Below are positions 10,215 to 41,170 of a stretch of DNA of 64,000 nt, one piece after another. The DNA is taken from assembly GCF_026210795.1 (NCBI RefSeq), contig NC_089440.1, positions 3,782,001-3,846,000 of the forward strand, read 5' to 3'. This DNA is from Rhizophagus irregularis (lineage: Eukaryota > Glomeromycota > Glomeromycetes > Glomerales > Glomeraceae). Position numbers and translations under genes: made by a program. Below the pieces are notes generated by a model. The model had not been told where the DNA came from and did not search any database. It saw only the letters and a program-made list of their open reading frames with translations. Numbering within the stretch: position 1 is the first letter of the stretch; every line of letters begins with the position of its first letter.

Positions 10215-13200
10215 TACAGTCAACTCTCTTTATAGTCACACATTTGGGACAGTCCATATTTGTTGATTATGAGCAAACAGTCTTATGACTTTATCTTTTA
10301 TTATAAATTTTTAAACGAAAAGTACAAAACTCAAATCGAACAATATTACAAATAAAATATAGAAAATTAAACATAAAAAATAAAAAGAACTAGCTTCACG
10401 ATTCATACAAGTAAAGAAATCTAAACAAAATAAAATTAAGTAAAGAAAAACTAAACTATTACAGAAACGCATACCCCAACTTTACCCGAAGGCCAGTGTG
10501 AGTCAACTATCCAGCATATCCGAAGATCCAATCCGTTATCAAAAAGAAATCCTAAGTAGAGGCTGAACTGTTAAGCGGCGCCAAAAATCTAAATGCGAAA
10601 TCCAAGATCCCCCATGGATTATATAAGAGAAAACCCAAGAAGTCCAGGAATCCAAGAAAGCTGTCGCCAAGAAAGGTGTCAAAATTGCAGGAGAAATTTG
10701 CGAGAAAGGATGAGAAATAGGAGAAGGTCCAATAGTGGACGATTTCATTTTATTGGTAATGCCTTGAGCTGATTCCCAATGATTAAAGAAAACGGAACGG
10801 CACAACCAGATTTGTACGTAGAGATCAAAACGAAAATCATGTAGCGCGTAAAAATCAAAAGAACAAATATGATTTGACGAAAAATATGTTCCAAGAAAAC
10901 TAGTAAGAGACATCGGTATAAGTCCACGTGCAAGTCGCAGACAAGAATTTGAAGGAGGGTCACAGTCCCAACAATCCATAGCCGTAAATTCCACAGTAAA
11001 GGTTAACTGGTAAAAATTTCAAAGGAGTTGCGGAGAGAAATTTTCCAAGACAAACAGTTCTAAGGTCCAGCAGAAGTGTTTTAAAAGTATTAAAAGGACT
11101 AAATTCAGGTAAAATATAAGGACAAGTCCATAAGTGGTCTAAAGTCTCAGGAGAGGAGTTGCACTGAGGACAGAGCCAACTCAGATCGATAGATATGAGG
11201 CTTTCGTCTTTGAAGAGTTGTGAGTGTCGGAAGCATATCCAATAAAATCTTGATACAGAAAGCACAAAATTCAGACCGGCCATTTCGATGGGAGGATTGT
11301 AATTATTTATTATTAAAACAAAATATGGTACAAGCCTAATCAATATCTGAAATAGAGGAATTAAGATTGAATCTTAGTAATAAAGCAAGAGTCAAAAGAC
11401 TCTTGGCGTCAAAAATATCTCCAATGAATTTCCGGATATTCATATCCACAGGTAAAGAATTAAATTGTAAAATGCAAGGAGCCAAAATTGCAGGTGAAAT
11501 AGAGGAAAGACGTGAGTCTGTATGAGCAGCTTTCGCTAAGTCATCAACATGGTTATTCAAAGAATCATCAGCGTGAGCAGGAACCTTGATTAAAGTAACT
11601 TCCAGATTCTTTCATGAGATAATAGCTCGTGCCGAAGACCATAGAAGGTGGTTGAATTCTTTAAGCATTTTAGGAATGAACGGAGCATTCACATACGTAG
11701 ACCATAAGGAAATTAATTGAGCACAATCAGTAGTGACAGTAATCTTGGAATACTGAGGAAGGAAGTCCAATCCATGCAATAAGGCAAAAATTTTGGAACG
11801 CAATGCAGAGGGAAAGAGGGAAGGAATGGTATTATAATGAGATTCAAGAATAAAACCATCAGAATCGATAGCAGTCCATGCATAAGCCATCGAAGGTGTC
11901 AGATGACTAGAAGGAGGAAGGAAGGATCCATCAATATACAGTGTAGACACTGAAGAAGGAAGTAGGATATCAGAAATCCTAGACCCTTGGTTAAGCATAG
12001 GAGGTAGCTGAACTGAAGCAAAAAGATAAAATAGTAAAAAAGATTTGGCATAGCCTAACGAAGCGGAAAGTGAGACTGAACGAGTATCTGCATGTATATA
12101 AGTACGAGGCTTCGTAGGGTAACGGATAAGATTTGATAAAGGCACATACGAGAAGCATTTTTCAGAGGGACATCATTTAATCAATGTCTTGGAGGTAGAG
12201 GATCGCGGAATAGCAGAAGCACTACCTTGGCATGCAGTGAAATCAGATAATAAGTCATCGGCAGATGATGCAATCCAATGTGAAATAAGAGCTTCATTTC
12301 GCGGAGCAGGATAGGTAATGATCACACGGCCAACAAGGAAAGAGTTAGTATCGTGATTAAAAAAAATAGCCCATTGTGGATTAAACAAATAATTTTGACT
12401 AATATCTATAGAACAGATAGAAGCAACAGTATAGGAATTAGGTATTCTAAATTGCGGTAAAAGAAAAAAAGAAGAAGAATTAGAAATAACAACTAAATTA
12501 AATAAATAAGTAAACCAAGCAGGCACAGATCCTTTATTCGAAACTCGTCTAAGAAAGCGTAAATCTTTCCATGGAAGAAACCGAGAGCCACACGGAGTAA
12601 CCAATTGGGCAAGAAAACGAGTACAAAAATTTTTCCGAACATTTTTCATGGAAGTGAATAAGTCTTTCGGTAAAATCGACCAGAGTGGAATTGCTGGACG
12701 TAGATCTTTTCTCGGAGGTCAGAACAATAAAGACCAAGTGATATTCAATCGAGAAGAGAATAATAAAGAATTAAACAAAGAATGTGTTCGCAAGGAAAAT
12801 GTATGGGACCATGGTTCCAAGTCAATAGTAGAAGGACAGGCATCACAATCTAGGAAGCTTTGGAGATAAGTAATCATATAATTGGCAAAGGTTTTATGTA
12901 AAGGGTGAGAAAAGATTTTTTTCCATGAAGCCACATGAGATGATAGAAATCGACCAAATGCTTGTTGAATAGAGAACGGCAACAATGTGAAAAGCGCGGA
13001 AAGAGGAGTGACTGATGCTAAACCAGCTTTTTGTCGAATAAGAGAAAGCATTGGAGAAACCATGCGCTTAATGGTGGATTCAGCAAATAATGTGGTTTGT
13101 AAGCGAAATTCTAGTCTTGGAAGTAAGACAACGTTATAAAGATAAGCCACATGTTGTGCCAAAAGTTTCTTAGGACTGAGTAAAGCAGCCATGTCTTTGA

Positions 13201-14367
13201 CCATGGAAGTACTTTGATCATGAACAAAGCGAGAAGAAGCTGAAAGGCAAAACCAGACACCTAAAAAGCGAAAAGACTTGGATAAAGCTAAAGCTTTTAA
13301 AGTAAGGGTACAAGGTTGGATTAAAGGAGATGGGAAAAAATCAAACACTATAGTTTGAGAAAATTGTTCAGAAGAAAGAAGGATATATTTTGCTGAATTT
13401 GCTTGAGTATTATTTAAAGTATAAAATTTAGCAGTAATGGAAAGGCGATCTTCAATTTCTCGTTTAGATGAAGCGATCAAAGTAGAATCATCCATAAATG
13501 TAATATGTGAAATAGGGAGATTGTGTTGTTCATATTCAATTGGAGAATAATCCAATAATGCAGAGGATTTCAAAATAAAAGGATTACTAGCTTCTCGATT
13601 AAGTGTTGTGAGCAAAGGATTTAAATAAATCACCCATAATAACGGAAAAATAATTTCACCCTGATCAATACCGATTCTAACTCTATATCCGGAAGTATCA
13701 CCATAATGAGTAATAATTTTGTTATTGCGTCTTGTGAAAAGATTGATAATAAATTTTATCAACAAGGGCGGGATATGTAAACGGATTAAAGCCAACTTGA
13801 ACATATTCAAATCAATCAAGTTAAAGGCCTTAGAAATGTCTTGGGAAACAATCCATAACTCTTGGTCATCAGTTTTATCAAAGTGGCGTTGATGAATAAT
13901 CGCGTCAAGCATTTTGATAGGAATGTCAGTGGAACCACCTGGTAATCCAGCAAAATTACCACCCTGAAGTATTTGGTTATCAGCTAGGATTTTTGAAAGA
14001 CGAGTTGTAACGACCTTGACCACACATTTCCGAACAGTTTCTAATAAAGTGATAGGTCGTGTATTCTTTAATTGAGCGTCAAATTCATGAGGCTTTGGAA
14101 TGGGATAAACAAGCGCTTCACGCCAATCTGCAGGAATATCACTATGAGTAAGGCAGGCATTGGCTAAAACAAGAGACAAATTGAAAGCTTCTCCAGTTAA
14201 ATGTTTGAGCATTTCATAAGAAATTTTAGAGGGGCCAGAGGCTTTGTTATTAGGCATAGACTGAAGAATAATCATCCATTCATCATCCAAAATAGGAGAC
14301 ATGACCGAGGTGTATAAAGACGAGTCAATGTCAGAAATAGGGGTATATGCTCTTTGCCAGCGTGGAG

Positions 14368-16564
14368 TAGAGGTATGCTCCAGTGGAATCCGTTCAATCT
14401 GTCATCCATTTTTTGATTGGATCGGATGATCCGGATTAAGAATGAACGGATTTCGAAAAATCCAGATGGATCCGTTGGATAATACCGGATTGATCGGATG
14501 TTACACGAATGATCGGATTGACCGAATTGATCAGATAATCTGGTCAAATCCGGTATTTTTTTTTGCTTTTTTTTTTTTTTAAAAAAAAAAAATATATAAA
14601 AATATAAAAAAAAATATAAAAATATAGAGCGTCTTCGCTTAGGACGTTCCCTTTACTTCGTTTTTCTAGGAAACACCTTCCTGGAACTGGATTTCGGCTT
14701 GAAGGTAAGTTAGAGGAGGTTTTTTTGTTTTTTTATTTATTTATTTTTCTAACGTTTTTCTTTATTCTTTTTTGTAGATTTCGGCTTTCCGAGTTCTTTG
14801 GGATAGTGGGTAAGTGTTTGTAAGCGCGTTCTCTTGGAATTTACTTTGAAGAAACGTACTAACGTTTCTTTTTTTATTCTTTTTTGTAGATTTCGGCTTC
14901 CGGGTTCTTTGGGATATTGGGTAAGTGTGCGGCAACGCATTCTCTTGGAATTTACTTTGAAGAAACGTATTAACGTTTCTTTTTTTTATTCTTTTTTGTA
15001 GATTTTGGCTTCCCAGGTTCTTTGGAATATTGGGTAAATGTGTGGGGGTGCGTTATTTACGAATTTACTTTGAAGAAACGTACTAACGTTTCTTTTTTTA
15101 TTCTTTTTTGTAGATTTCGGCTTTCCGGGTTCTTTGGGATATTGGGTAAGTGTGTGGGAACGCGTTCTCTTGGAATTTACTTTGAAGAAATGTACTAACG
15201 TTTCTTTTTTTATTCTTTTTTGTAGATTTCGGCTTCCCGGATTCTTTGGGATATTGGGTAAGTGTGCGGCAATGCGTTCTCTTGGAATTTACTTTGAAGA
15301 AACGTACTAACGTTTCTTTTTTTATTCTTTTTTGTAGATTTCGGCTTTCCGGGTTCTTTGGGATATTGGGTAAGTGTGCGGCAACGCGTTCTCTTGGAAT
15401 TTACTTTGAATAAATGTACTAACGTTTCTTTTTTTATTCTTTTTTGTAGATTTCGGCTTCCCGGGTTCTTTGGGATATTGGGTAAGTGTGCGGCAACGCG
15501 TTCTCTTGGAATTTACTTTGAAGAAACGTACTTAACGTTTCTTTTTTTATTCTTTTTTGTAGATTTTGGCTTCCCAGGTTCTTTGGAATATTGGGTAAGT
15601 GTGTGGGGTGCATTATTTACGAATTTACTTTGAAGAAACGTACTAATGTTTCTTTTTTTTATTCTTTTTTGTAGATTTCGGCTTCCCAGGTTCTTTGGGA
15701 TATTGGGTAAGTGTGTGGGAACGCGTTCTCTTGGAATTTACTTTGAAGAAATGTACTAACGTTTCTTTTTTTATTCTTTTTTGTAGATTTCGGCTTCCCG
15801 GGTTCTTTGGGATATTGGGTAAATGTGTGGAAGCGCGTTCTCTTTGAATTTACTTTGAAGAAACGTACTGACATTTCTTTTTTATTCTTTTTTTGTAGAT
15901 TTCGACTTCTGGGTTTTTTGGGATATTGGGTAAGTGTGTAGGGTGCGTTATTTACGAATTTACTTTGAAGAAACGTACTAACGTTTCTTTTTTTATTCTT
16001 TTTTGTAGATTTCGGCTTCCCGAGTTCTTTTGGATATTGGGTAAGTTTAAGTGTGTGGGAGCGCGTTCTTTTGGAATTTACTTTGAAGAAACGTATTAAC
16101 GTTTCTTTTTTTATTCTTTTTTGTAGATTTCGGCTTCCTGAGTTCTTTGGGATATTGAGTAAGTGTGTGGAATTCGTTCTTTTGGAATTTACTTTGAAGA
16201 AACGTACTAACGTTTCTTTTCTATTGTGATATGGGTAAGTGTGTGGGGTGGGTTTACTTTAAGCAATGTAATAATTTTATTTGGTTCAAATTAATAAATA
16301 AATTTACATTACTATATATTAAACTATAAACAATAAATATGAATTATGTTTTTAAGAAAAAAAAAATTGAACGGATTGAACAGATTGAACGGATATCTGG
16401 TGAACTATCCGGTCAATCTGGTCAAACCAGTGATACAAGGATTGAATGGATATCCATTGATCCATCCGGTCAATCCAGTGACACAACCAAATCAATCTGA
16501 ATCCGGTCAATTTTCGGATGGATGACTGGATATCCGGATTGATGGATTTCGGAGCATACCTCTA
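14368..16564. mobile_element. Non-autonomous hAT element, 2197 bp, inside LINE copy 1
   Basis: The termini are a perfect 14-bp inverted repeat, TAGAGGTATGCTCC at 14368-14381 and its complement at 16551-16564. They are flanked by an 8-bp target duplication GCGTGGAG (14360-14367 and 16565-16572). The uninterrupted sequence in copies 2 and 3 (GTGGAGGAAATG) confirms the insertion point. The 8-bp duplication and YARNG-type end identify the hAT superfamily. Subterminal regions hold many GGATATCC/ATCCGGTCAATC repeats. There is no transposase. The interior (14640-16250) is almost entirely a tandem array of intron-like units described separately. Confidence 0.9.
14778..16205 (+). repeat. 13-unit, 112-bp array of exon/intron-like modules
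   Basis: Units start at 14778, 14890, 15002, 15114, 15226, 15338, 15450, 15563, 15675, 15787, 15899, 16009 and 16127. Each has a 32-nt exon-like block beginning ATTTCGGCTTCCCGG and ending GATATTGG. An ~80-nt intron-like block follows with donor GTAAGTGTG, a branch-point match TACTAAC (variants TATTAAC, TACTGAC), a T-rich tract and acceptor TTTTTTGTAG. The branch-point match lies in the loop of a hairpin GAAACGT/ACGTTTC. A related leader at 14640-14715 has TTCGTTTTTCTAG, a 35-nt block and GTAAGT. Whether it is spliced is unknown. Confidence 0.85.
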
Positions 16565-18205
16565 GCGTGGAGGAAATTCATCAATAGAAGAATGCTGAAC
16601 TAATGGAGGAGTAACAACCGATTGGAAGTGTTTGATAGCAGCTTGTTTGATGTCTGAAGGTTCAGTAAGTAAAGTAGGCTTGGAGTCAATTACAACCAAA
16701 ACTCTATCAAGAACGATAGAACGATGTTCCACTGACAGGGCTGAAGAAATAAAGGAGCCTGGCGATATAGAGAAATGTTCGTCTCTAAGGGCAGTATAAT
16801 ATTCAATAGAATCCACATGATGTTGATAAAATTGCGTGGAAAGATAAGCAGAGACTAAAGCTTTTTGTGAACGCAAAAATTTTACAAAATCAGGAAGTGG
16901 TGTTGTATTATAAATAGGGATAGTATAATCCGTTAAAAGGGATTTCAATAGAATCAATTGTGTAGGTAAAGAATTAATCATCTGTGAAATTTGAGCAGAA
17001 CGACTAAGCTGAGACGTGATCAATTTGAACAATAATCTATCCAAGAATTTGTTGATAGCAATAAGCATCGTAAGCTCCAGAGAATATTTATGGTGATGAG
17101 TATTGGATACATGTTGAAATGGAAGAGAATCAATGGCACCACCAAGAATAGAACGTTTAAGAGCGTGCCAAAGTTTGTCTAAGGAAAGAGCTGAAAGTGA
17201 AGATATGGAAGGATGGTGTGTGGCTAAATACAACTTGAGACGTGAGTTTACTTCATTAGAAAATGTGTCCCAAGTGTCCTCTTTTAAATTCTTGTAGAGA
17301 AAAATGGTACGTTGTTCGCTTTTCTGTTTTAGTCTAGCTTTGGCTAAAGTAGCGAAACAAGAACTAAAGTCGAAGGCCGTAATGAGTACACGGTGATCAG
17401 TAAATTGGTTATCATTCAACTTAGGACAAGATTCAACATAAGAGAAAAGACCGGGAGCAGGAAAGCCAGGGGATGACCAAATATAATCAAGTCTTGAAGA
17501 ACCATTCTGATGATAAAAGGTAGGACTAGGACCTGAAATTGAAGAAATATGGGATTGATGATCCGTAAAGTAGCGAGAAGAAAGTGATCGTAAAATTTTT
17601 AAATGATGTTGAGGAAGATATGAATGTGAAATTTCATCTGCATTAAAATCACCAAGGATGACTACGTGATAGTTATTAGAGCGGGCTTTATCAAGCCATA
17701 AATTAAGTTGGGCAAAAACAGCATCACGTTCTTTATAATGAACAGAATGATAGGGAGGAATATAAACAGAAATGATAGAAATTTTTGTTTGATGAAAAAA
17801 AAGATCTAATTTTAAAAGGCGATCATTTCAAGGATCAATTTTCTGAACATGTTTATGTAAGGGATGGCGAAGTAAAAGACCAACACCATCATGAGGTCGT
17901 GAATTAAAAGGGGAAGGAGCTCAATAGGACTTAAAATTATGTTGGGAATGTTCAGTTTGATAAATAAATTTAGCACTAGAAGAAGTAAGACGAGTATCAT
18001 TTAAAGATAAAACGCCAAAAGAAGAATGGAGAAAACAATTTAACAAATGCAACTGACGAACAGGGGAGCACAAACCATTAACATTGATTTGTCTAAAATT
18101 AGTAAGAGGGAAAAGGAAGAAGGAGAGTTATTAGGACGATTAATATTAAGTAGCGCACTATCAGGGGGGTGAGATCCCTGTGAAGCACCCGATATAAATT
18201 GGTGT

Positions 18206-20265
18206 TCAATCATTAGAAGGGGAGGGTTTTGAGGGAGAGAAGGAGTCCAATTTTTCCATAATCGAACCAAGTTGGGCAGAAAGATTCTTTTGTGTATTGG
18301 TGACATTAGAAATCTCCGATTGCAAACGGGAAGTATTAGCATCAGGAGTAATAATAGTAGGTCAGGAGTTAGGTAACGAGACATGTCTTCTTGATAAGAC
18401 AGAGTTAGGATCCAGAGCTGAAAAAGAAGCATCAGGAGAAGTGTTCATGAGAAAAGGGGAAGTATGGGGAGGAAGATTGAATCCAGAATTCGTGTCTTGG
18501 GTTGGGGCATCATCCCATCCATTATCATAAGAATGATTTTGAATTTCATGGTCATCACGAGGCAGATACAAATCAGAGTCACCAGGGTTGTCATAATTCA
18601 TCATTGATTCAAGCTCAGATAGCCTATACTCATGGGACGTGATAGTATCATTCATCCAAGAGACAGTTTCCTCTAGAGTACGTAGGGTGTTAGCGATCTC
18701 TTTGATCTGCACCTTTAAATCATCAATAATATGTTGAGGTTTATGTGGAGGTTGAGTAGAACCGGAAGAATTTTCATTGTTCCTGTAATTATTAGTATTA
18801 TTGTTGGTCCAATTGTTACTGCGAGAAGTATTGGGACGAGAAGTGTTAGTATTATTGTTGCTGTTGTCGAAATGGGATGAAAAGAAATTATTATTGCGGG
18901 ATCTAGAATTGGATCGCGATCTTGAACAGGAATTGGAATTTTCACGTGATTGGCGTGAATCCTGACGACCACATCTAGGGCCAGCATTGAAGCGAGAATA
19001 AAGTTTATTAAGGCGATCATCCACTTTCCGTGTGGTACGAGGATTACATACAGAGGGAGAACAACCAGGACGTCCACAAACGTGGCATAAAGTTTGTGCT
19101 TCATTGGAAGGGTGCCATGTTAATCCTTTGCCGCGGAAAGCCACGGTCATTTCTTTGGCAGCTTCAAGAGATTCAAATGAGGAGAAATTCAAATATACAT
19201 AGGGTTTAGGCTTGTATGAACTGATAGATAGAGGAACGTTAAGGGCTTTAGCGTTAACTTGAGTAGCAATTTCCGACAGGTCAGCTTCTTTAATATTCTT
19301 TGGAATGCCAGAGAGGATAGCAACATGTTCTCTGCGACTATCGCGTTTGGATTTCAAAAAGGATGCCAGGCAGACACGCAAAGAATTACCAAGGCAAATG
19401 ATCGCCCAAATATCATTAAATTGGGTAACAGCATCTGCGGAGGAAAACTGGATATGTCCATTATAGTAATGCTTCCTAGGAGTAAGTTTGCAACTTGATT
19501 ACAGTGCCATATCGGGAAAATGCCTGACGGACTTGAGTCTCAGTTAGGAAAAGTGGGATATCAGTGACGAACAAAGACTTCATTTCATCACTGAGCTTGG
19601 CGTCTGCAGGGAGTAATGGCTGAAAACCAAATCAAGGAGATCGGCACGTGGAGAGTTGACACAATCGGTATAATCATCATGATTATTGAAGAAGACAAGG
19701 ATTTTCTTGTTATCGCCTGATCCTTCGCATCGTGCGCGAGCGCCATAGGAAGAATAATGGGAGAGTGAACAATCCACTTCGTCACACATAGAGCGATTGG
19801 TGGTGAATTTAGCTTTGAACGCGTCAGGTGCGTCGCGTAGGTAGGCCGCAGCGTGATAACGAAGGTGCAGATTTGATAGCGCGCATTCCCATCGGGGAGA
19901 TGGTCGTCGTTCTGGGATATCAAGGTGACAGCTTTGCCTTTACCACTGGTGGTGTTAAAGGGAGCATGGATAGAAGCGTCAACAGTTTCAACAGGAGTGG
20001 AAATATTTTGAGGAGATGTAATCACGTGGACTTTGTTGACAGGAAGACCAGAAGGAGCGGTAGAAATAAGGTTGGGAGCAGGAGCAAAAGGCGAAGTTAT
20101 ATCAACATTCATCGCGTCATCAGAGATAGTACATGTACGTTTATTAAATGCGCCAGTGGTACTAGTGGGAGATAAAGGTCAATTTCCAGAGGGAGTAGAA
20201 ATAACAGGACGCGGTGGCGGTGGAATATCCAGGTTAATAACAGAAGGAGCTGGAGGTGTAGTCAT
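18206..20265 (-). pseudogene. LINE copy 1 ORF1, broken
   Basis: Minus-strand ORF1 starting at the ATG at 20265 (MTTPPAPSVINP-type start as in copy 2) and ending at the TGA at 18206-18208. The longest intact part, 19381-18362, carries the second RRM-like region (REHVAILSGIPKNIKEADL, KPYVYLNFSSFESL), the zinc knuckle CHVCGRPGCSPSVC near 19090-19050, an Arg/Ser-rich tract (SRSRSNSRSRNN) and an Asn-rich linker. The first RRM region (19588-19440) and the N-terminus are split by frameshifts. ORF1 proteins of this kind bind the element RNA and form the RNP. Confidence 0.8.
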
Positions 20266-20690
20266 AGTTTAAAGCTCAGTAAAGAGGAAAACAACTGGGA
20301 AAATATTAGTATTTAGAACGAGCACTAAGAAATTTTCGAACGAAAATTTCAAAAATAAATTTTATTAGTATTTTCAAAAATTCAGGAAAGAGTTGCAATG
20401 ATCCTCCATATTTGTTGATTATGAGCAAACAGTCTTATGACTTTATCTTTTATTATAAATTTTTAAGTGAAAAGTACAAAACACAAATCGAACAATATTA
20501 CAAATAAAATATAGAAAATTAAACATAAAAAATAAAAAGAACTAGCTTCACGATTCATACAAGTAAAGAAATCTAAACAAAATAAAATTAAGTAAAGAAA
20601 AACTAAACTATTACAGAAACGCATACCCCAACTTTACCCGAAGGCCAGTGTGAGTCAACTATCCAGCATATCCGAAGATCCAATCCGTTA

Positions 20691-23600
20691 TCAAGAAGAA
20701 ATCCTAAGTAGAGGCTGAACTGTTAAGCGGCGCCAAAAATCCAAATGCGAAATCCAAGATCCCCCATGGATTATATAAGAGGAAACCCAAGAAACCCAGG
20801 AATCCAAGGAAGCTGTCGCCAAAGAAGGAGTCAAAATTGCAGGAGAAGTTTGCGAGAAAGGATAAGTAGTAGGAAAAGGCCCAATAGCGGACGATTTGAT
20901 TTTATTGGTAATGCCTTGAGCTGATTCCCAATGATGAAAGAAAACAGAACGGCACAACCAGATTTGTACGTAGAGATCAAAATGAAAATTATGTAGAGGT
21001 GTATCAAGAATAGAACAAATAGTGGATAATGAAAAATATGTTCCAAGAAAACTAGTAAGAGACATCGGTATAAGTCCTCGTGTAAGTCGCAGACAAGAAT
21101 TTGAAGGAGGATCACAGTCCCAACAATCCATAGCCGTGAATTCCACATCAAAGAAGTCCAGTAGAGATATCAAAGGAGTCGTGGAGAGAAATTTTCCAAA
21201 ACAAACAGTTCTAAGGTCCAGGAGAAGTGTTTTAAAAGTATTAAAAGGACCAAATTCAGGTAAAATATAAGGACAAGTCCATAAATGGTCTAAAGTCTCA
21301 AGAGAGGAGTTGCACTGAGGACAGAGCCAACTCGGATCATAAATATGAGGCTTTTGTCTTTGAAGAGTTGAGAGTGTCGGAAGCATATCCAATAAAATCT
21401 TGATACGGAAAGCACAAAAATCAGACCGGCCATTTCGATGGGAGAATTGTAGTTGTTTATTATTAAAACAGAATTTGGTACAAGCCCAATCAATATCTGA
21501 AATAGAGGAATTAAGATTGAATCTTGGTAGTAAAGCAAGAGTCAAAAGACTCTTGGCGTCAAAAATATCTCCAATGAATTTCTGGATATTCATATCCACA
21601 GGGAAAGAATTAAATTGTAAAATACAAGGAGCAAGTAATTCTGATGATGAATGGGAAGGAAGATGCAAATCAGTATGAGCGGCTTTAGCTAAGGCATCCA
21701 CATGATTATTCAAAAGGTCATCAGCGTGAGCGGGAACCTTGATCAAAGTAACATCCAGATTCTTTTGCGACATAATAGTTCGTATGGAGGACCACAAAAG
21801 GTGGTTAGATTCTTTAAGCATTCTGGGAATAAAAGGAGCATCCACATACAAAGACCATAAAGAAAGTAATTGGGCACAATCAGTGGCGACAGTAATCTTT
21901 GAATTCCGAGGGAGGGAGTCCAATCCGTGCAATAAAGCGAAAATTTCTGAACGTAAGGCAGAAGGAAAAGTGGAAGGAATGATATTGTAATGAGATTCCA
22001 AAATGAATCCATTAGGATCTATAGCAGTCCATGCATAAGTCATCGAAGATATCGGATGACTAGAAGGAGGGAGGAAGGAACCATCAATATACAGTGTAGA
22101 AGTCGACGAAGGGAGTTGGATATCAGAAACTCAAGACACTTGATTGTTAATAGGAGGTGATCGAACTAGAGCAAAAAGATGAAATAATAATAAAGATTTG
22201 GCATAGCCTAACGAAGCAGAAAGTGAGACCGATCGAGTGTCCGCATGTATATAAGTACGAGGCTTCGTAGGGTAACGGATGAGATTTGATAAAGGCACAT
22301 AAGAGAAGCACTTTTCAGAGGGACATCATTTAAGCAATGTTTTGGAAGTGGAGGATCGCGGAAGAGCAGAGACACATCATTGGCATGCAATAAAATCAGA
22401 TAATAAGTCATCGACAGATGACACAAGCCAATGTGAAATAAGAGCTTCATTACGTGGAGCTGGATATGTAGTAATCACACGGCCAACAAGAAAAGAGTTA
22501 GTATTACGATTAAAAGAAATAGCCCATTGAGGGTTAAACCAATAATTACGACTAATATCTATAGGAAAAATAGAAGCTACAGTATAGGAATTAGATATTT
22601 TAAATTGTGGTAAAACAAAAAAGGAAAAAGAATTAGGAATAACAACTAAATTAAACAAATAAGTAAACCAAGCAGGCACAGATCCTTTGTTCGATACTCG
22701 TTTAAGGAAGCAAAGATCTTTCCATGGGAGAAGTCGAGAACCACACGGAGTAATCAATTGAGCAAGAAAACGAGTGCAGAAGTTCTTCTGAACATTATCC
22801 ATGGAAGTAAATAAATCTTTTGGTAAGATAGACAAGAGTGGTATTGTCGGACGTAGATCTTTCCTCAGATAGAGGTCAGAATGTTAGAGACCACGTGATA
22901 TTCAATCGGGAAGAAAACAGTAAAGAATTATACAAAGAGTGTGTACGCAGGGAAAGTGTATGAGACCATGGTTCCAAGTCAATAATAGAAGGACAGGCAT
23001 CACAGTCCAAAAAACCTTGCAAATAAGTAATCATATAATTGGCAAAAATCTTATATGAAGGATGAGAAAAAATTTTCTGCCATGAGGCAACATGTGATAA
23101 TAAAATTCGGCCAAAAGCTTGCTGAATTGAGAACGGTAACAATGTGAAAAGCGCAGATAGAGGAGTGATGACTGAGGCAAGACCAGCCTTTTGTCGAATG
23201 AGGGAAAGCATCGGAGAGACCATGCGATTAGTGGTAGATTCAGCAAATAATGTGATTTGTAGGCGAAATTCTAGTCTCGGAAGCAAGATAATGTTGTAAA
23301 GATAAGCCACATGATGTGCCAAAAGTTTTTTTGGACTGAGTAAAGCAGCCATGTCTTTGACCATGGAAGTAGTTTGGTTGTGAACAAAACGAGAAGAAGC
23401 TGAAAGATTAAACCAAACACCTAAAAAACGGAAGGATGTAGATAAGGCTAACGCCTTTAAAATAAGGGAAGAATTAAAAATTAAAGGAGAAGGAAAAAGA
23501 TCAAACTCTATAGTTTGAGAAAATTGTTCAGAAGAAAGAAGGATATATTTTGCTGAATTTGCTTGAGTATTATTTAAAGTATAAAATTCAGCAGTAATGG

Positions 23601-28276: not shown

Positions 28277-28435
28277 AGTATAAAGCTCAGAAAAAGGAAA
28301 GCAACTGTGTGGAAATATTAGTATTTATGAACGAGCACTTAGAAATTTTCGAACGAAAATTTCAAAAATAAATTTTATTAGTATTTTCAAAAATTCAGGA
28401 AAGAGTTGCGATGATCCTCCATATTTGTTGATTAT

Positions 28436-29431: not shown

Positions 29432-29446
29432 ATATTTGTTGATTAT

Positions 29447-30447
29447 TTTACAAGTGTTTTGTAAGTTTAGTGGCCACTACTTTCCGCACCCTCTATTGAA
29501 GGCTATGGAGGTAGGTCGTTCATTGCATCATCCTCACTAAGCCATGATGTAACCATCTTCGCCACCTTTTTAACAGGGACAATTCAACACCCCAACCGAA
29601 ACGCAAGGACTTATCCCAGGGACCCGAAGGCCTTCGAATCTGCTGAACACCACCCTACTCGTCCTTTAATCCGTTGCATGATACTGTAATGGCTACTATT
29701 ATAACCCCTCACCACTACTACTGTCACAGAGGACTTTCGTCAGATAACCTTCAAACATCTGACACCCTTCCATACCACCATATTAGGTAACAGGTCTCAC
29801 TCAAAGGCCACTACAGCCCGCGATTACCCACCACCGATAGTACAGTTGTAATCTCCAAGTGGTATACTTTGTAGTGACCACCTGGACAGTAAGCTTGTAG
29901 GTGTTACCCAGGATCATCCCTTATGGTGGGTATCAACCACCAGGAATCACCAACCAGGGCCCATTAGAGAATTGAATTGAACCCAATCACCAAGCTATCT
30001 GTCGCGCACGAACACCTTGGTTGGATCATGGACGCAACAGAAGGTCAAACTACCAGCTAAGACATTGCACCCTCAGCTTTACCATCTAGGACGACCATCT
30101 AGCCATTACTGACCCCAAGCGGTATCGTAGAGCGACCATCCGACAGGAAGTCCCCCCTAGGATAAGTAGCGACCCTCGCCACAAGGGACTGCGCACATGC
30201 CAATGGCCCCCCTTCAGTGAACGTTCGAAGGATACACGGACCCCTTAGTTGAAATGTGCGGCCACACTAATTCACCATGATGCAGTCCAACTACACTAAT
30301 CCCTGTACCTTCACGCTATTGGTTGTAGCGTCCGCAGTAAAATTCTTTTATTTCCACGGTCAGTGGAAATCGAACCTGCGACCTCACCATACTAGGCTTA
30401 ATGAAGGTGCTCAGTGACTAACCACTGAGATAGGGTGACCAACCCAT
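29447..30447 (-). mobile_element. SINE-like tRNA-derived unit 2 (1001 bp)
   Basis: Second copy of the same unit, same orientation, between identical 15-bp sites. The tRNA-like head is at 30440-30358 with B-box GGTTCGATTTCC. It differs from unit 1 by scattered substitutions and short indels, for example CCTTGGTTGGATCATGG in place of CCTTGGTTGGTCTAAGA near 30025, so it is a separate insertion or an older duplicate rather than an assembly repeat. Confidence 0.7.
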
Positions 30448-30462
30448 ATATTTGTTGATTAT

Positions 30463-31470
30463 TTTTACAAGTGTTTTGTAAGTTTAGTGGCGCTACTTTC
30501 CGCACCCTCTATTGAAGGCTATGGAGGTAGGTCGTTCATTGCATCATCCTTACTAAGCCATGATGTAACCATCCCTGCCACCTTTTAACAGAGACAATTC
30601 AACATCACAACCAGAACGCAAGGACTTATCCCAGGGACCCGAAGGCCTTCGAATCTGCTGAACACCACCCTACTCGTCCTTTAATCCGTTGCATGATACT
30701 GTAATGGCTACTATTATAAACCCCTCACCACTACTACTGTCACAGAGGGCTTTCACCATGATAACTTTCAAACATCTAGACCCCTTCCATACCACCATAT
30801 TAGGTACTGGGTCTCACTCCAAGGCCACTACAGCCCGTGATTACCCACCACCGATAGTACAGTTGTAATCCCCAAGTGGTATACTTTGTAGCCGACCACC
30901 TGAACAGTGTGTTTCGTAGGCGCTACAGATCATCCCTTACATGGGTATCAACCACCAGGAATCACCAACCAGGGCCCATCAGAGAAGGGAATCGAACCCA
31001 ATCACCAAGCTATCTGTCTGTGCACGAACACTGTGGTTGGTCTAAGACCTAACAGAAGGTCAAACTACCACTAAGACATTGCACCCTCAGCTTTACCATC
31101 TAGGACGACCATCTAGCCATTACTGACTCCAAGCGGTATCGTGGAGTGACCACCTGGACAGGAAGTCCCCCCACCCCCCAGGTATAGTAGTGACCTCAAG
31201 GACAGGACTGCGCACATACCAATGGCCTCATAGGAAACGTTAGAAGGACACCATGACCCTGGTTGAAATGTGCGGCCTAACCGTACACACTAATTCACCA
31301 TGATGCAGTCCAACTACACTAATCCCTGTACCTTCACGCTATTGGTTGTAGCGTCCGCAGTAAAATTCTTTTTATTTCCATGGTCATGGAAATCGAACCT
31401 GCGACCTCACCATACTCAGGCTTAATGAAGGTCTCAGTGACTAACCACTGAGATAGGGTGACCAACCCAT
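30463..31470 (-). mobile_element. SINE-like tRNA-derived unit 3 (1008 bp)
   Basis: Third copy. The tRNA-like head is at 31463-31382: A-box TATCTCAGTGG, B-box GGTTCGATTTCC and acceptor-like GGTCA/TGACC pairing. It is most like unit 4 at its sense 3' end (left side), sharing the sequence TTACTAAGCCATGATGTAAC. It carries a C-run (CCCCCCACCCCCCAGG near 31170) that the other units have in shorter form. Confidence 0.7.
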
Positions 31471-31485
31471 ATATTTGTTGATTAT

Positions 31486-32485
31486 TTTTACAAGTGTTTT
31501 GTAAGTTTAGTGGCCACTACTTTCCGCACCCTCTATTGAAGGCTATGGAGGTAGGTCGTTCATTGCATCATCCTTACTAAGCCATGATGTAACCATCCCT
31601 GCCACCTTTTAACAGAGACAATTCAACACCACAACCAGAACGCAAGGACTTATCCCCGGGACCCGAAGGCCTTCGAATCTGCGAACACCACCCTACTTGT
31701 CCTTTAATCCGTTGCATGATACTGTAATGGCTACTATTATAAACCCCTCACCACTACTACTGTCATAGAGGACTTTCGCCAGATAACTTTCAAACATCTA
31801 GACCCCTTCCATACCACCATATTATAGCATGGTGCCTCACCTGCCATCACTACATGCGTGACACCCATCACCGATAGTACAGTTGTAATCCCCAAGTGGT
31901 ATACTTTGTAGTGACCACCTGAACAGTAAGCTTGTAGGTGTTACCCAGATCATCCCTTATGGTGGGTATCAACCACCAGGAATCACCAAACTGCCGCCCA
32001 CAGTATGGGAATCGAACCTAATCACCAAGCTATCTGTCTGCGCACGAACACTGTGGTTGGTCTAAGACCTAACAGAAGGTCAAACTACCACTAAGACATT
32101 GCACCCTCAGCTTTACCATCTAGGACGACCATCTAGCCATTACTGACCCCCAGCGGTATCGTGGAGTGACCACCCGGACAGGAAGTCCCCCAAGGTATAG
32201 TAGTGACCTCGAGACAGGACTGCGCACATACCAATGGCCCCTCATAGGAAACGTTAGAAGGACACCATGACCCTTAGTTGAAATGTGCGACCTAACCGTA
32301 CGCACTAATTCACCGTGATGCAGTCCAACCACACTAATCCCTGTACCTTCACGCTATTGGTTGTAGCGTCCGCAGTAAAATTCTTTTTATTTCCGTGGTC
32401 ATGGGAATCGAACCTGCGACCTCACCATACTCAGGCTTAATGAGGGTCTCAGTGACTAACCACTAAGATAGGGTGACCAACCCAT
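31486..32485 (-). mobile_element. SINE-like tRNA-derived unit 4 (1000 bp)
   Basis: Fourth copy, adjoining LINE copy 3. The tRNA-like head at 32478-32397 has the best B-box of the four (GGTTCGATTCCC). A divergent patch at about 31825-31870 replaces the sequence shared by units 1-3 (GGTCTCACTCAAAGGCC), again showing that the units diverged independently. Confidence 0.7.
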
Positions 32486-32765
32486 ATATTTGTTGATTAT
32501 GAGCAAACAGTCTTATGACTTTATCTTTTATTATTAAATTTAAACGAAAAGTACAATAAACAGATCGAACAATATTACAAATATCAAATATAGAAAATAA
32601 ACATAAAAAATAAAAAGAACTAGCTTCACGATTCATACAAGTAAAGAAATCTAAACAAAATAAAATTAAGTAAAGAAAAACTAAACTATTACAGAAACGC
32701 ATACCCCATCTTTACCCGAAGGCCAGTGTGAGTCAACTATCCAGCATGTCCTAAGATCCAATCCG

Positions 32766-35700
32766 TTACCAAAAAGAAATCCTAAGTAGAGGCTGAACTG
32801 TTAAGCGGCGCCAAAAATCCAAATGCGAAATCCAAGATCCCCCACGGATTATAGAAGAGGAAACCCAAGAAACCCAGGAATCCAAGGAAGCTGTCGCCAA
32901 GGAAGGTGTCGAAGAGTCAAGAGGAATGTTAGAGGAAAGTCGAAGAATAGAAGAAGGCCCAAGAGCTGACGATTTCATTTTTTTTGTAATGCCTTGAGCT
33001 AATTCCCAATGATGAAAGAAAATGGATCGGCACAACCAGATTTGAACATAAAGGTCAAAATGAAAGTCATGCAAAGGTGTATCCAAGATAGACCATATGG
33101 TAGGTGAAGAAAAATAAGTTCCAAGAAATTCTGTCAAAGATTTCGGTATAAGTCCTCTTGTGAGTCGCAGGCAGGAAATTGAAGGAGGGTCACAATCCCA
33201 ACAATTAAGAGCCATAAATTCAGCAGCAAAAGAGTCCGGTAAAGGGATTAAAGATGACGCGGAAAGGAAATTATCAAGATAAGTAGTCCGAAGAGCCAAT
33301 AGTAATGTTTTAAAAGTTTGTAAAGGGCTAAATTCCGGTAAAATATAAGGACAAGTCCACAAGTGGTCTAAAGTCTCGGGAAAGGAATTACATTGAGGAC
33401 AAAGCCAACTTGGATTATAAAGATGAGGCTTTCGTCTCGAAGAGTTGTAAGCGTTGGAAGCATATCAAAAGTAGGCGATACGGAAACCACAAAACTCAGA
33501 ACGGCCATTCCGATGAGAGACAAAATGCTTATTGTTATTGAGACAAAATTTGGTGCAAGCCCAGTCAATATCAGAAGTTGAAGAATAGGAATTAAATCTT
33601 GGTAAGACAGCAAGAGTTAAAAGACTTTTGGCGTCAAAAATATTTCTAATAAATTTCCGGATATTCATATCCACAGGTAAGGAATTAAATTGTAAAATGC
33701 AAGGAGCCATCAAATCCAATGGTGGGCAAGAAGAAAGATGTGAGTCAGTATGAGCGGCTTTGGCTAATGCATCCACATGATTATTCAAGAGGTCGTCAGC
33801 ATGAGCAGGAACCTTGATCAAGGTAACATCCAGATTCTTTTGCAACATAATAGTGCGTATGGAGGACCACAAAAGGTGGTTGGATTCTTTAAGCATTCTG
33901 GGAATAAAAGGAGCATCCACATATAAAGACCATAAAGAAAGTAATTGAGCACAATCAGTGGCAACAGTAATCTTTGAATTCCGAGGAAGGGAGTCCAATC
34001 CGTGCAATAAAGCAAAAACTTCTGAACGTAAAGCAGAAGGAAAAATGGAAAAGATGATATTATAATGGGATTCCAAAATAAATCCATCAGGATCTATAGC
34101 AGTCCATGCATAAGCCATCGAGGATACCGGATGACTAGGAGGAGAAAGGAAGGAACCATCAATATAAAGGGTAAACACCGAAGAAGGAAGTTGGATACAT
34201 CAAATCCTAAGCACTAGTTCATTCGTAGGAGGTAAGCGAACCGGAGCAAAAAGATGAAATAGTAAAAGAGATTTGGCATAGCCTAACGAGGCAGAAAGTG
34301 AAACTGAACGAGTATCCGCATGTATATAAGTACGAGATTTCGTAGGATAACGGATCAAACTTGATAACAGAACATAAGAGAAACATCCTTCAGAGGGACA
34401 TCGTTTAATCAAAGTCTTAGAGGTAGAGGATCGCGGAATAGCAGAGGCACAGCCTTGGCATGCAGTAAATTCAGAAAGTAAATCATCAACCGATGACGCA
34501 ATCCAATGTGAAATAAGAGCTTCATTACGTGGAGCAGGATAGGTAGTAATCACACGGCCAACGAGGAAAGAGTTAGTATTGCGATTAAAAGAAATAGCCC
34601 ATTGAGGGTTAAACCAATAATTTCGACTAATATCTATAAAAGAAATAGAAGCTACGGTATGAGAACTAGGAATTCTAAATTGTTGTAAAATAAAAAAGGA
34701 AGGTGAATTAGGAATAACAATAAGATTAAACAAATAATTAAACCAAGCGAGGCACAGATCCTTTGTTTGATACTCGTTTAAGAAAGCGTAAATCTTTCCA
34801 TGAGAGAAGTCGAGAGCCACACGGTGTAATCAATTGAGCAAGAAATTGAGTGCAGAAATTTATCCGAACATTTTTCATGGAAGTAAATAAATCTTTTGGT
34901 AAAATAGACCAGAGTGGAATCGCCGGACGTAAATCTTTCCTCGGAGGTCGGAACAGTAAAGACCACGTGATATTTAAACGAAGAGAACAATAAAGAATTA
35001 AATAAAGAATGTGTTCGCAAAGAAAAGGTGTGGGACCATGGTTCCAGGTCAATAGTAGAGGGGCAGACATCGCAGTCCAAAAAACCTTGGAGATAAGTAA
35101 TCATATAATTAGCAAAGAGCTTATATGAAGGGTGAGAAAAAATTTTCTGCCGTGAAGCCACATGAGATGATAGAAATCGACCAAACGCTTGTTGAATAGA
35201 AAAAGGCAACAGTGTGAAGAGTGTGGAAAGAGGGGTGACTGAGGCCAAACCAGCCTTCTGACGAATAAGAGAAAGCATTGGAGAAACCATGCGATTAATG
35301 GTGGATTCTGCAAATAATGTGGTTTGTAGGCGAAATTCAAGCCTCGGAAGTAGGACAACATTATAAAGATAAGCTATATGTTGTGCTAAAAGCTTTTTAG
35401 GACTGAGTAGAGCGGCCATGTCTTTGACCATGGAAACAGTTTGGTTATGAACAAAACGAGAAGAAGCCGAAAGATTAAACCAAACACCTAAAAACCGAAA
35501 AGATGTAGATAAGGCTAACGCTTTTAAAGTAAGGGTATGAATCGTATTTAAAGAAGATGGAAATAGATCAAATACAATAGTGTGAGAAAATTGTTCAGAA
35601 GAAAGAAGGATATATTTTGCTGAATTTGCTTGAGTATTATTTAAGGTGTAAAATTCAGCAGTAATGGAAAGGCGATCCTCAATTCCTTGTTTAGATGAAG

Positions 35701-38232
35701 CAATCAAAGTAGAGTCATCCATAAATGTAATATGTGAAACAGGAAGATTATGTTGTTCATATTCAATTGGAGAATAATCCAATAATGCAGAAGATTTCAA
35801 AATAAAGGGATCACAAGCTTCTCGATTAAGTGTGGTAAGTAATGGATCCAAGTATATAACCCATAATAGTGGAGAGATGATTTCACCTTGGTCAATACCA
35901 ATTCTAACTCTATATCCAGAAGTATCACCATAATGTGTAATAATTTTATTATTACGCCTTGTAAAAAGGTTAATGATAAATTTGATCAATAAAGACGGAA
36001 TATGCAGACGGATTAAAGCCAGTCTAAGCATGTTCAAATCAATTGAGTCAAAGGCCTTAGAAATGTCCGAGAAACAACCCATAGTTCTTGGTCATCGCTT
36101 TTATCAAAGCGTCGTTGATGAATAATAGCATCAAGCATCTTAATAGGAATGTCGGTGGAGCCGCCTGGTAATCCAGCAAAATTACCACCTTGGAGCACTT
36201 GATTGTCAGCCAGGATTTTTGATAGTCGAGTTGTAACGACCTTAACCACACATTTTCGTACTGTTTCCAATAGAGTGATAGGTCGCGTATTCTTCAATTG
36301 GGCGTCAAATTCATGAGGCTTTGGAATGGGATAAACAAGCGCTTCACACCAATCGGCAGGAATATCTCCATGAATGAGACAAGCATTGGCTAATACAAGG
36401 GACAAATTGAAAGTTTCTCCAGTTAAATGTTTGAGCATCTCATAAGAGATCTTGGAAGGACCAGAGGCTTTATTATTAGGCATAGAATTAAGAGTGTTTT
36501 TCCATTCATCGGCCAGAATAGGAGACATAACCAAGTTATATAAGGACGAATCAATATCTGGAAGAGGAGTATAAGCTCGTTGCCATCGTGGAGGAAATGA
36601 ATCCGTAGAAGAATACTGGACCAAAGGAGGAGTGACAACCGATTGGAAGTGTTTAATAGCAGCTTGTTTGATATCTGAAGGATCAGTAAGTAATGTGGGT
36701 TTGGAGTCAATGACAACCAAAACTCTATCAAGGACAATAGAACGATGTTCTACTGATAGGGCTGAAGAAATAAAAGAGCCCGGGGATGTAGAGAAATGTT
36801 CATCTCTAAGAGCAGTATAATATTCAATGGAATCTACACGATGCTGATGAAATTGCGTGGAAAGATAAGCTGAGACCAAAGCTTTTTGTGAACGTAAAAA
36901 TTTGACAAAAGTTGGAAGCGGTGTTGTACTATAAGAAGGTATAGTATAATCTGTTAAAAGAGACTTAAGGAGGATTAATTGGGTTGGTAAAGAATTAATC
37001 ATTTGTAAAATTTGAGCAGGACGACCAGGCCGAGATGTGGTCAATTTAAACAATAATCTATCCAAGAATTTGTTGATAGCAATAAGCATGGTAAGCTCGG
37101 GAGGATATTTATGGTGATGAGTGTTGGATACATGTTGGAATGGTAAAGAATCAATGGCACCACCAAGAATAGAACGTTTAAGAGCGTGCCAAAGTTTGTC
37201 CAATGAAAGAGCTGAAAGTGAAGATACTGAAGGGTGGTGTGTGGTCAAATATAACTCAAGACGTGAGTTAACTTCATTGGAAAATTTATCCCAAGTGTCA
37301 TCTTTCAAATTTTTGTAAAGAAAGATGGTGCGTTGTTCGCTTTTCTGCTTTAATCGAGCTTTAGATAAAATAGCGAAACATGAGCTAAAATCAAAGGCCG
37401 TTATAAGTGCACGGTGATCAGTAAATTGATTATCATTCAGCTTAGGACAAGTTTCAACTTGAGAAAAAAGACCAGGAGCAGGGAATCCAGGGGATGACCA
37501 GATATAATCAAGTCTTGAAGAACCATTCTGGTGATAAAAGGTAGGACTAGGACCTGAAGTTGATGAAATATGGGATTGATGATCCGTGAAATATCGAGAA
37601 GAAAGTGATCGTAAAATTTTTAAATGATGTTGAGGAAGATGTGAATGTGAAATTTCATCTGCATTAAAATCACCAAGGATGACTACGTGATAGTTATTAG
37701 AACGGGCTTTATCAAGCCATAAATTAAGTTGTGCAAAAATAGCATCTCGTTCTTTATAATGAATAGAATGATAAGGAGGAATATAAATAGAGATAATAGA
37801 AATTTTTGTCTGATGAAAGAAAAGATCTAATTTTAAAAGACGACCTTTCCAGGGATCAATCTTCTGAACATGTTTATGTAAAGGATGACGAAGTAAGAGA
37901 CCAACACCATCATGTGGTCGGGAATTAGAAGGGGAAGGAGCCCAATAGGACTTAAAATTATATAAGGAATGTTCATTTTGATAAATAAATTTAGCACCAG
38001 AAGAAGTAAGGCGAGTATCGTTTAAAGATAAAACGCCAAAGGAAGAATGCAAAAAATAATTTAACAAATGCAATTGTCGGACGGGGGAACACAAACCATT
38101 AACATTGATTTGTCCAAAATTAATAAGAGGAGAAGAAAAAGAAGGAGAAGAAAATTTATTAGAACTATTATTATTAAGTATCGCACTATTAGGGGGTGAA
38201 ATCCCTGTAATACACCCGATACAGATTGGTGT
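32766..38232 (-). pseudogene. LINE copy 3 ORF2 (EN-RT-RNase H), broken
   Basis: Open in frame from just after the ORF1 TGA (38233-38235) to about 36070: INVNGLCSPVRQL, LNDTRLTSSGAK, ILGDFNADEISH, SRLDYIWSSPG, FTDHRALITAF (all APE-endonuclease motifs), a long linker, then RT motifs NKASGPSKISYEML and FAGLPGGSTDIPIKML. A one-base deletion near 36068 (CCGAG where copy 2 has CCTGAG) shifts the frame; RT resumes to 34778 with SKAFDSID, QGEIISPLLW and FMDDSTLIASS. Further shifts occur near 34800 and 34190. RNase H at 34178-33480 (LYIDGSF, SEVFALLHGLD, ATDCAQLLSLW, NNHVDALAKAAH) is intact, then the end is shifted again near 33470. It encodes the nicking and target-primed reverse-transcription machinery in its active parent. 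Confidence 0.88.
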
Positions 38233-40355
38233 TCAATCATTGGAAGGGGAGGGTTTTGAGGGAGAGAAGGAGTCCAATTTTTCCATAATCGAACCAAGTT
38301 GGGCAGAAAGATTCTTTTGTGTATTGGTGACATTAAAAATTTCCGATTGCAAACGAAGTGTCAGCGCCGGGGGCAACATTAGTAGGTCGGGAGATAGGTA
38401 AAGGGACGTGTCTTCTTGATAGAACAGAGTTAGGATCCAGAGCTGAGAAGGAAGCATCAGGGGAAACGTCCATAAGAGAAGAAGAGGTATTGGGAGGAAG
38501 ATTGAATCCAGAATTCATGACTCGGGTTGGAGCATCATCCCATCCATTATTATAAGAATGAGTATAATTTTCATGATCATCCTGAGGCGAATGCAATTCG
38601 GTAGTTCGCCAGGGCGTCGCATAATTCATCATTGATTCCAGCTCAGATAGTCTATATTCATGAGCCGTAATAGTGTCATTCATCCAAGAGACTGTTTCCT
38701 CTAGAGTGTGGAGGGTGGTAGCGATCTCTTTGATTTGCGCCTTTAATTCATCAACAACATGTTGAGGAAGCGTAGGGGCAGGATTGTCAGATGAAGAAGT
38801 AGGGTGTATAGAACTGATAGGATGAGGTCTGTGTGGAGGTTGGGCAGAACCAGAAGAATTATCATTGTCCTTGGAATTATTATTATTATTGTTGGTTCTG
38901 TTATTACTTCGTGAAGTGTTGGGACGAGAAGTGTTATTAATATTGTTGTTGTTGTCGGAACGGAATGAAGAGGAATTATTATAGCGGGATCTAGAGTTGG
39001 AACGCGATCTTGAACGGGAATTGGAATTGTCACGTGATTGGCGCGAATCCTGACGACCACGTTTAGGTCCAGCATTGAAACGAGAATAAAGCTTGTTGAG
39101 GCGATCGTCCACTTTCCGTGCGGGACGAGGATTGCATACAGAGGGAGAACATCCAGGACGCCCACAAACATGGCATAAAGTTTGTGCTTCATTGGGAGGA
39201 TGCCATGTTAATCCTTTGCCGCGGAAAGCCACAGTCATTTCTTTGGCAGCTTCAAGAGATTCGAACGAGGAGAAATTCAAATACACATAGGGTTTAGGCT
39301 TGTATGAGCTGATAGACAAAGGAACGTTAAGAGCCTTAGCGTTAACTTGCGTAGCAATTTCTATCAGATCAGCTTCTTTAATATTTTTGGGGATGCCGGC
39401 AAGGATAGCAACATGTTCTCTGCGGCTATCGCGTTGGGATTTCGAATAAGATGCCGGGCAGACGCGTAAAGAATTACCAAGGCAAATGATCGCCCAAATA
39501 TCATGAAATTGGGTAATTGCGTCCGCGGAGGAAAACTGGATATGTCCATTGTAGTAATGCTTACGAGGAGTAAGTTTGCACTTGATTACAGTGCCATATC
39601 GGGAAAAGGCCTGACGGACTTGAGTCTCGGTAAGGAAAAGTGGGATATCAGTAACGAAACAAAGAAGCTTCGTCAATTGAGTTTGGCATCTGCAGGGGAA
39701 TAATGAATAAAGGCTAAATTGAGAAGATCAACACGTGGTGAACTGACACAATCGGTATAATCGTGTTGATCATTAAAGAAGACAAGGATTTTTTTATTAT
39801 CGCCTGATCCATCGCAGCGTGCACGGGCGCCATAAGAGGAATAGCGGGAGAGTGAGCAATCCACCTTGTCACACGTGGAGCGATTGGTGGTGAATTTAGT
39901 TGTGAACGCGTCAGGCGCGTCGCGTAAATATGCCGCAGCATAATAACGAGAAGGAGCAGATTTAATAGCGGCAGCATTACCATCGGGAGATGGTCGCCGT
40001 TCAGGGACATCAAAGGCGACAGCTTTGCCTTTACCACTGGTGGTGTTAGAGGGAGCATGGATAGAAGCGTCAACAGTTTCAACAGGAGTGGTAGTATTTT
40101 GAGGAGATGTAAGCACTTGGATTTTGTTGATAGGAAGACCTGAGGGAGCGGTAGAAATAAGGTTGGGAGCCGAAGCAGAAGGTGAAGTTATATCACATTC
40201 GTGGCGTCATCAGAGACAACGCGTGAACGTTTGTTAGGCACGCCAGCGGTAGTCGTGGGAGACAAAGGTCGGTCTCCAGAGGGAGTAGAAGTAATAGGAC
40301 GCGGTGGCGGTGGAATATCCGGGTTAATAACAGAAGGAGCTGGAGGTGTAGTCAT
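38233..40355 (-). pseudogene. LINE copy 3 ORF1, frameshifted
   Basis: Starts at ATG 40355 and ends at TGA 38233-38235. Frame losses: a deletion near 40195 (TATCACATTCG versus ATCAACATTC in copy 2), one near 39665, and one near 38360. The main open part, 39676-38333, shows RRM-like region 1 (FVTDIPLFLTETQVRQAFSR), region 2 (REHVAILAGIPKNIKEADL), zinc knuckle CHVCGRPGCSPSVC, RS-rich tract, Asn-rich linker and coiled coil. The C-terminal tail (LRLQSEIFNVTNTQKNLSAQ to SPSND) continues in another frame to the TGA. Confidence 0.85.
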
Positions 40356-40616
40356 AGTTTAAAGCTCAGTAAAGAGGAAAGCAACTGTGGAAAAATTAGT
40401 ATTGTGAACGAGCACTTAGAAATTTTCGAACGAAAATTTCAAAAAATAAATTTTATTAGTATTTTCAAAATTTCAGGAAAGAGTTGCGATGATCCTCATA
40501 TTTGTTGATTATAAAGAGATGTGACTATATAAAAAATTTCTTATATTTGTATATCATAATTCCGGCCAAAAATTAACATAATTTTAGCCAGAATTATACT
40601 TAAAACTTTATTATAT

Positions 40617-41170
40617 CGTAACTTCGCCAATATTAATCATAGAGAGATGATCTTACCGCCATTCGATTCGTCTTGATGAGACGGTTCTAATGGTATAAAA
40701 TACGTCGAAATCCAATCACTAGATTAATTTCCGAAATTAAAAAAATATTAATGGTTTTTGTGTAATAACTCTGTCAATATTGATCCTAGAAAGACGATCT
40801 TACTACCATTCGATTCGTCTTGATGAGACGAATCTAATGGTATAAGATACATCGAAATCCAATCACTAGATCAATTTCCGAAATTAAAAAATATTAAATG
40901 GTTTTTAAGTAATAACTCCGTCAATGTTGATCACAGAGAGATGAGCTTACCACCATTCGATTCGTCTCGATGAGGCGATTCCAACGAGCTATAAATCGTC
41001 TTTTTACAATCACTAGGTACCGAAAACTCTAGCAAAATGTTAAATGGCGCAGTAAACGTAAATCAAGAAATATTATAATGCTGATGTTTAATATTTTGTT
41101 GAATAACTCGTCAGCCAGTGATCGGAAAAGGATAAAACTACCACCATTCGATTCGTCTCAGTGAGACGAT
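40617..41170. repeat. Tandem ~145-bp repeats with a GTCTnnnTGAGAC core
   Basis: Three to four imperfect units, each containing TTACnnCCATTCGATTCGTC, then TTGATGAGACG, TCTAATGGTATAA and TCCAATCACTAGAT. They lie inside the right half of the pogo-like element. The same core, an inverted repeat CGTCT/AGACG, recurs at 55000-55030 and 57300-58790 within the window. Confidence 0.75.

Follow-up and report, generated by a model that had tools for sequence, protein, structure and literature searches.

A mixed array of LINEs and SINE-like units at a repeated 15-bp site within a DNA-transposon end of Rhizophagus irregularis

The window analysed here, a stretch of 64,000 nucleotides from the genome of Rhizophagus irregularis, contains an array of seven retroelements that lie head to tail in the order LINE, LINE, four SINE-like units, LINE, with the minus strand as the sense strand of all seven (Table 1). 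The units are separated and bordered by eight exact copies of the 15-bp word ATATTTGTTGATTAT, all on the plus strand. An earlier note made from the sequence had described three LINEs and four SINE-like units at eight identical 15-bp junctions in one orientation, and all eight copies were found again. LINE 1 is approximately 2.2 kb longer than LINEs 2 and 3 because it holds another insertion, which has the ends AGAGGTATGCTCC...GGAGCATACCTCT, carries 112-bp tandem repeats and looks like a nonautonomous DNA transposon. To the right of the array, positions 41126-41421 match positions 54754-55049 in inverted orientation (296 bp, 92%), the latter belonging to another copy of the transposon that hosts the array, or to a relative. 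Matches to hAT-dimerisation, HEAT-repeat and Erv1/Alr domains were found in minus-strand ORFs in 60485-61525, 45582-46451 and 47956-48675, respectively.

Table 1. Features of the array and of its host transposon (positions within the window)
Feature	Positions	Strand	Remarks
Host DNA transposon, outer left end up to target site	10215..10255	+	TA + CAGTCAACTCTCTTTATAGTCAC...; 98% match to TIR plus site; empty copies L069-L071 share this end
Target site copy 1, GTTG variant	10256..10270	+	exact 15-mer
LINE_A copy 1	10271..20407	-	10,137 bp; holds 2.2-kb foreign insertion at 14377-16565
Target site copy 2	20408..20422	+	exact 15-mer
LINE_A copy 2	20423..28420	-	7,998 bp
Target site copy 3	28421..28435	+	exact 15-mer
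SINE S1 copy 1	28436..29431	-	996 bp
Target site copy 4	29432..29446	+	exact 15-mer
SINE S1 copy 2	29447..30447	-	1001 bp
Target site copy 5	30448..30462	+	exact 15-mer
SINE S1 copy 3	30463..31470	-	1008 bp; extra A at 3' junction
Target site copy 6	31471..31485	+	exact 15-mer
SINE S1 copy 4	31486..32485	-	1000 bp; extra A at 3' junction
Target site copy 7	32486..32500	+	exact 15-mer
LINE_A copy 3	32501..40497	-	7,997 bp; ORF pieces 38333-39676 (RRM), 36034-38094 (endonuclease, RT start), 34778-36082 (RT), 33465-34178 (RNase H)
Target site copy 8	40498..40512	+	exact 15-mer
Host DNA transposon, remainder	40513..41421	+	ends ...GAGAGTTGACTG + TA

In the LINE of the window, LINE_A, ORF1 matches an RRM, and ORF2 matches an APE-type endonuclease, a reverse transcriptase (RT) and an RNase H (Pfam Exo_endo_phos, RVT_1 and RNase_H), with the frames of the window copies broken into several ORFs. 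Scoring was applied to the 8,000 candidates with the most words in common with the endonuclease/RT piece; 98 of 102 matches carried the name Rhizophagus irregularis, and among solved structures the endonuclease piece gave only a weak match to the LR1 endonuclease (E 0.25). The SINE-like unit, S1, behaves as a SINE in being short, in being flanked by target duplications and in having 5'-truncated copies; no minus-strand ORF of at least 200 aa was found within 28436-32485. As to the description of these units as tRNA-derived, A/B-box-like motifs can be read in them by eye, while ARAGORN and Rfam called no tRNA.

When they are joined at the site, the sequences bordering the array, TACAGTCAACTCTCTTTATAGTCACACATTTGGGACAGTCC on its left and AAAGAGATGTGACTATA... 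on its right, form one terminus of a DNA transposon that has inverted ends and is flanked by TA. The target lies approximately 40 bp inside one end of this high-copy, nonautonomous element, whose terminal inverted repeats (CAGT...ACTG) carry TA at both outer ends, both in the window and at a second locus (L070), a feature of the Tc1/mariner-pogo type. A complete empty copy at L070 measures 1,077 bp with both TA dinucleotides counted (TA-CAGT...ACTG-TA). Unoccupied targets are abundant, with 377 copies of the 61-bp end containing an intact site in the whole genome (up to 3 mismatches) and none for the reversed control. The target had been proposed to lie outside rDNA, which agrees with its position in a DNA-transposon end rather than in the 28S rDNA that is the target of R1 in the strict sense. 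In the search for an autonomous partner, 6 of the 163 genomic matches to DDE_1 (PF03184) were checked, and none of the six had the ends of the host transposon.

The genome (146.7 Mb, 32 contigs) was searched for the 15-mer of the window, which occurs 17 times, 8 of them in the window (reversed control pattern: 2 forward, 0 reverse). Six of the nine outside copies were inspected (L001-L006), and none of these was flanked by LINE or SINE units. The exact 15-mer was rejected as the genome-wide insertion site: the ordinary site is ATATTTGGTGATTAT, and the form in the window is a private GTTG variant of it. The tails of LINE_A and SINE S1 were located with patterns that excluded the site itself, and the counts cover copies with the exact tail. 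Of 108 exact LINE_A 3' ends, 104 are directly followed by the degenerate site; the other four also lie at the site and differ by 6 inserted nt or by a changed end base. Likewise, 71 of 75 exact S1 3' ends directly abut it, and the remaining four lie there as well, marked by an additional A, a doubled tail or a changed end base. A search from the LINE 3' end alone returned 34 rows (32 places), every one running into the site. The earlier proposal of a sequence-specific insertion that regenerates its site is thus borne out by 108/108 LINE and 75/75 SINE 3' ends at the site or a close variant, and unrelated flanks, looked for across the genome, were found for none of these exact ends. The target is fixed and its duplication constant at 15 bp, close to the approximately 14 bp of R1-type elements. 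In one SINE (L084, C23:377180-377380), the tail ACACTTGTAAA is doubled before the site, perhaps by slippage as reverse transcription starts. Another locus, L085, contained no junction.

A second set of elements uses the same host transposon. LINE_B, found at two loci (L071 and L076), is inserted at another position of the transposon, site A (GGAAAAGGATAAAACT), and is approximately 70% identical to LINE_A in DNA over the endonuclease-RT part; its ORF2 has an uninterrupted frame of 1,795 codons. Its tail is joined to site A in 141 junctions (up to 3 mismatches) and to a minor site B (TAAAAAGACGATTTATAG) in 2 exact junctions. Despite their different sites, LINE_A and LINE_B have 84% identity over their last 400 nt. 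A divergence of the endonuclease as a mark of the change of site was not seen, since the endonuclease domains (74% identical) differ about as much as the RT domains (78%). The accompanying SINE, S2, has the head and body in common with S1 (86%) but not the tail; of its 13 distinct places, 10 are at site A and 3 at site B. The sites used by each SINE are those of a single LINE. At one of the site B insertions of S2 (L069, C1:212700-217700), site 1 of the same transposon copy is empty.

Because LINEs and SINEs have their sites in common, most tellingly the minor site B, we posit that the SINEs use the enzyme of the LINEs, with S1 probably depending on LINE_A. The SINEs might instead have been moved by a different LINE, one ending in the S1 tail and directed at the same target. 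In favor of this are the unlike tails of S1 and LINE_A, given that the available portion of PMC3747384 describes tails common to both partners in classical stringent LINE/SINE pairs. In the fetched loci, however, compared through rows that reach the SINE 3' end, every copy of the S1 tail terminates a SINE body, with no LINE carrying it there, and the agreement of both the main and the minor site of S2 with those of LINE_B favors shared machinery; we therefore consider a different LINE an unlikely source of the S1 insertions. As the earlier note had stated, LINE and SINE 3' ends are unalike: no significant similarity was detected between the tails of S1 or S2 and those of LINE_A or LINE_B, and the best of the four comparisons, S1 with LINE_A, was reached by 9 of 300 shuffles. 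A LINE tail copied into the SINEs was rejected on this basis. The further remark that sharing would depend on the site itself, and not on the 3' end, is compatible with this difference between the tails. By eye, several 3' ends carry a hairpin and, after it, a short tail with TTGY at its end, a feature too short to serve as evidence. The use of LINE_A machinery by S1 also has a point against it, as R1-type elements are said in the text seen of PMC3414825 to recognize their own 3' UTR, which counts against our main reading given the unlike SINE tails.

Arrays are common in the genome. Of the 175 units mapped, which comprise the 75 SINE ends and the 100 LINE ends listed out of 108, 114 fall into 40 same-strand clusters of 2 to 7 units within 12.5 kb, 26 of them mixed, compared with approximately 1.3 pairs expected by chance. 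In the fetched loci, 95 junctions downstream of LINE or SINE 3' ends were classified: the transposon end follows in 30, a further LINE or SINE in 63, and 2 were unassigned. The unit-to-unit junctions lead into a LINE in 24 cases (4 truncated) and into a SINE in 39 (12 truncated), giving 16 5'-truncated units in all. This survey kept 114 of 121 site-like places, the rest having no recognized or long enough flank, and 5' truncation was recounted by hand because the S2 reference had included 30 nt of flank.

The site variants record how these arrays grew. The GTTG form is present in 8 of 8 window sites and absent from all other listed LINE and SINE junctions (100 of 104 LINE and 71 SINE junctions listed), which indicates that the site was copied in place. 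Other private variants occur at C27:1.36 Mb and C5:1.84 Mb (2/2 seen in each), a local variant of site A is present in three junctions at C27:1.89 Mb, and a solo SINE at C27:2.85 Mb has its own variant on both sides. As a point against this reading, neighboring junctions differ in their site at C27:3.15 Mb, C10:2.52 Mb and C16:1.69 Mb, by a single differing junction per array, so that mutation at a later time has to be assumed. Through its private variants, every array becomes a record of its own growth.

A private variant at every junction would also be produced if, following a single insertion or a small number of them, the array had expanded through tandem duplication or unequal crossing over, with the repeated site simply belonging to the duplicated unit. 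SINE copies 3 and 4 suit this explanation, as they are 93.5% similar and both have an extra A before the site. The relationships of the other units argue against it. In a tree of LINE copies that span the 560 nt at the 3' end (41 rows, with one place twice), LINE 1 is closest to a copy on C3 (97.4%), LINE 2 to one on C19 (96.8%) and LINE 3 to one on C13 (99.8%), while the window LINEs are 91-96% identical to one another and LINE 3 only 91% to LINEs 1 and 2. Because each is closest to a copy on another contig, the three LINEs are separate insertions. In a tree of 28 full-length SINEs (850-1150 bp), copies 1-3 are likewise closest to copies elsewhere, and only copy 4 is closest to its neighbor, copy 3, so that one of the two may be a local duplicate. 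The composition of arrays also varies from place to place, and 5'-truncated units stand at exact sites. Tandem duplication as the main cause is therefore rejected for the LINEs by the trees, with SINE copies 3 and 4 as the exception, and it is a very improbable account of the array as a whole. That the array is an assembly artefact, with repeats collapsed or chained at the shared 15-bp word, is hardly credible: the region is repetitive, but the junction structure recurs in approximately 40 clusters of differing composition, the units are several percent apart from each other, and the site variants are specific to their locus.

We posit, with a probability of about 90%, that the array arose by sequence-specific, R1-like, endonuclease-guided non-LTR retrotransposition into a DNA-transposon end, with the SINEs using the machinery of the LINEs. 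Fixed 3' ends, 15-bp duplications, 5' truncations and a single orientation, all read from the DNA sequence, point to target-primed reverse transcription at a sequence-specific nick. The LINE_A endonuclease would nick the transposon strand at 5'-GGACAGTCCATATTTGGTGATTAT^AAAGAG-3' (a first nick at GATTAT^AAAG of the strand given), and the freed 3' end would prime reverse transcription of the LINE RNA from its exact 3' terminus (...GACTGTTTGCTC). A staggered second cut would then yield the 15-bp duplication. With an intact site left on either side of each insertion, more LINEs could be added in the same orientation, and reverse transcription of SINE RNAs at this nick would contribute further units. 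LINE_B and SINE S2 would follow the same process at site A and, rarely for the LINE, at site B.

More tentatively, and with somewhat less than even confidence, these elements may form a guild of three tiers. One DNA transposon family would serve as the landing pad; at least two LINE lineages would divide its sites while keeping a common 3' tail; and SINEs with a common head and body would change target by exchanging the 3' part, their recruitment depending on a very short 3' motif or on the target and not on a copied LINE tail. LINE_A and LINE_B offer a natural system to study how the target of a LINE endonuclease can shift without a change in the RNA tail, and the SINEs one to study how such elements find a LINE without a common tail. 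The system also adds new fungal members, including LINE_B with its open ORF2, to the site-specific LINE proteins, which are of interest as tools for insertion. It may further help to account for a part of the unclassified repeats of this much-studied plant symbiont, an arbuscular mycorrhizal fungus.

R1-type LINEs are listed for R. irregularis in the available parts of PMC8647823 and PMC11075540, the latter also listing SINEs; in these parts, 'site-specific' (both papers) and 'target site' (PMC11075540) led to no mention of site specificity or arrays. We found no report of this LINE/SINE/transposon system in the literature searched, a search that could have missed papers. The closest parallel is the 28S rDNA of Drosophila, where, according to the text seen of PMC3414825, tandem R1 copies are separated by a 14-bp target duplication, with R2/R1 hybrid SIDEs interspersed. 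Both systems combine an APE-type site-specific LINE, tandem copies separated by the duplicated site, and nonautonomous units among them. They differ in that the Rhizophagus target is a DNA-transposon end and the host a fungus, and in that the fly SIDEs carry R1 3' UTR segments (PMC3414825, in part), whereas the SINE-like passengers have tails unlike that of the LINE. 'Transposons' are also named among LINE targets in the portion seen of PMC4640811. The array appears to work like those of R1, a likeness of operation that does not imply membership of the R1 clade. Arrays as such are known from R1 in fly rDNA; new against the literature searched appear to be the target, the host and the paired use of sites by LINEs and SINEs.

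A specific target inside another mobile element is also known from Xenopus, where the target of Tx1L, likewise an APE-type LINE, lies within the Tx1D transposon. To our knowledge, Tx1L/Tx1D has no SINE partner and forms no mixed arrays, while in Rhizophagus two LINE/SINE sets use one transposon. Stringent LINE/SINE pairs have a common 3' tail. The Rhizophagus SINEs resemble them in being short nonautonomous elements that apparently use LINE machinery, and differ from them in that no tail similarity was detected here and the pairing is visible as shared target sites.
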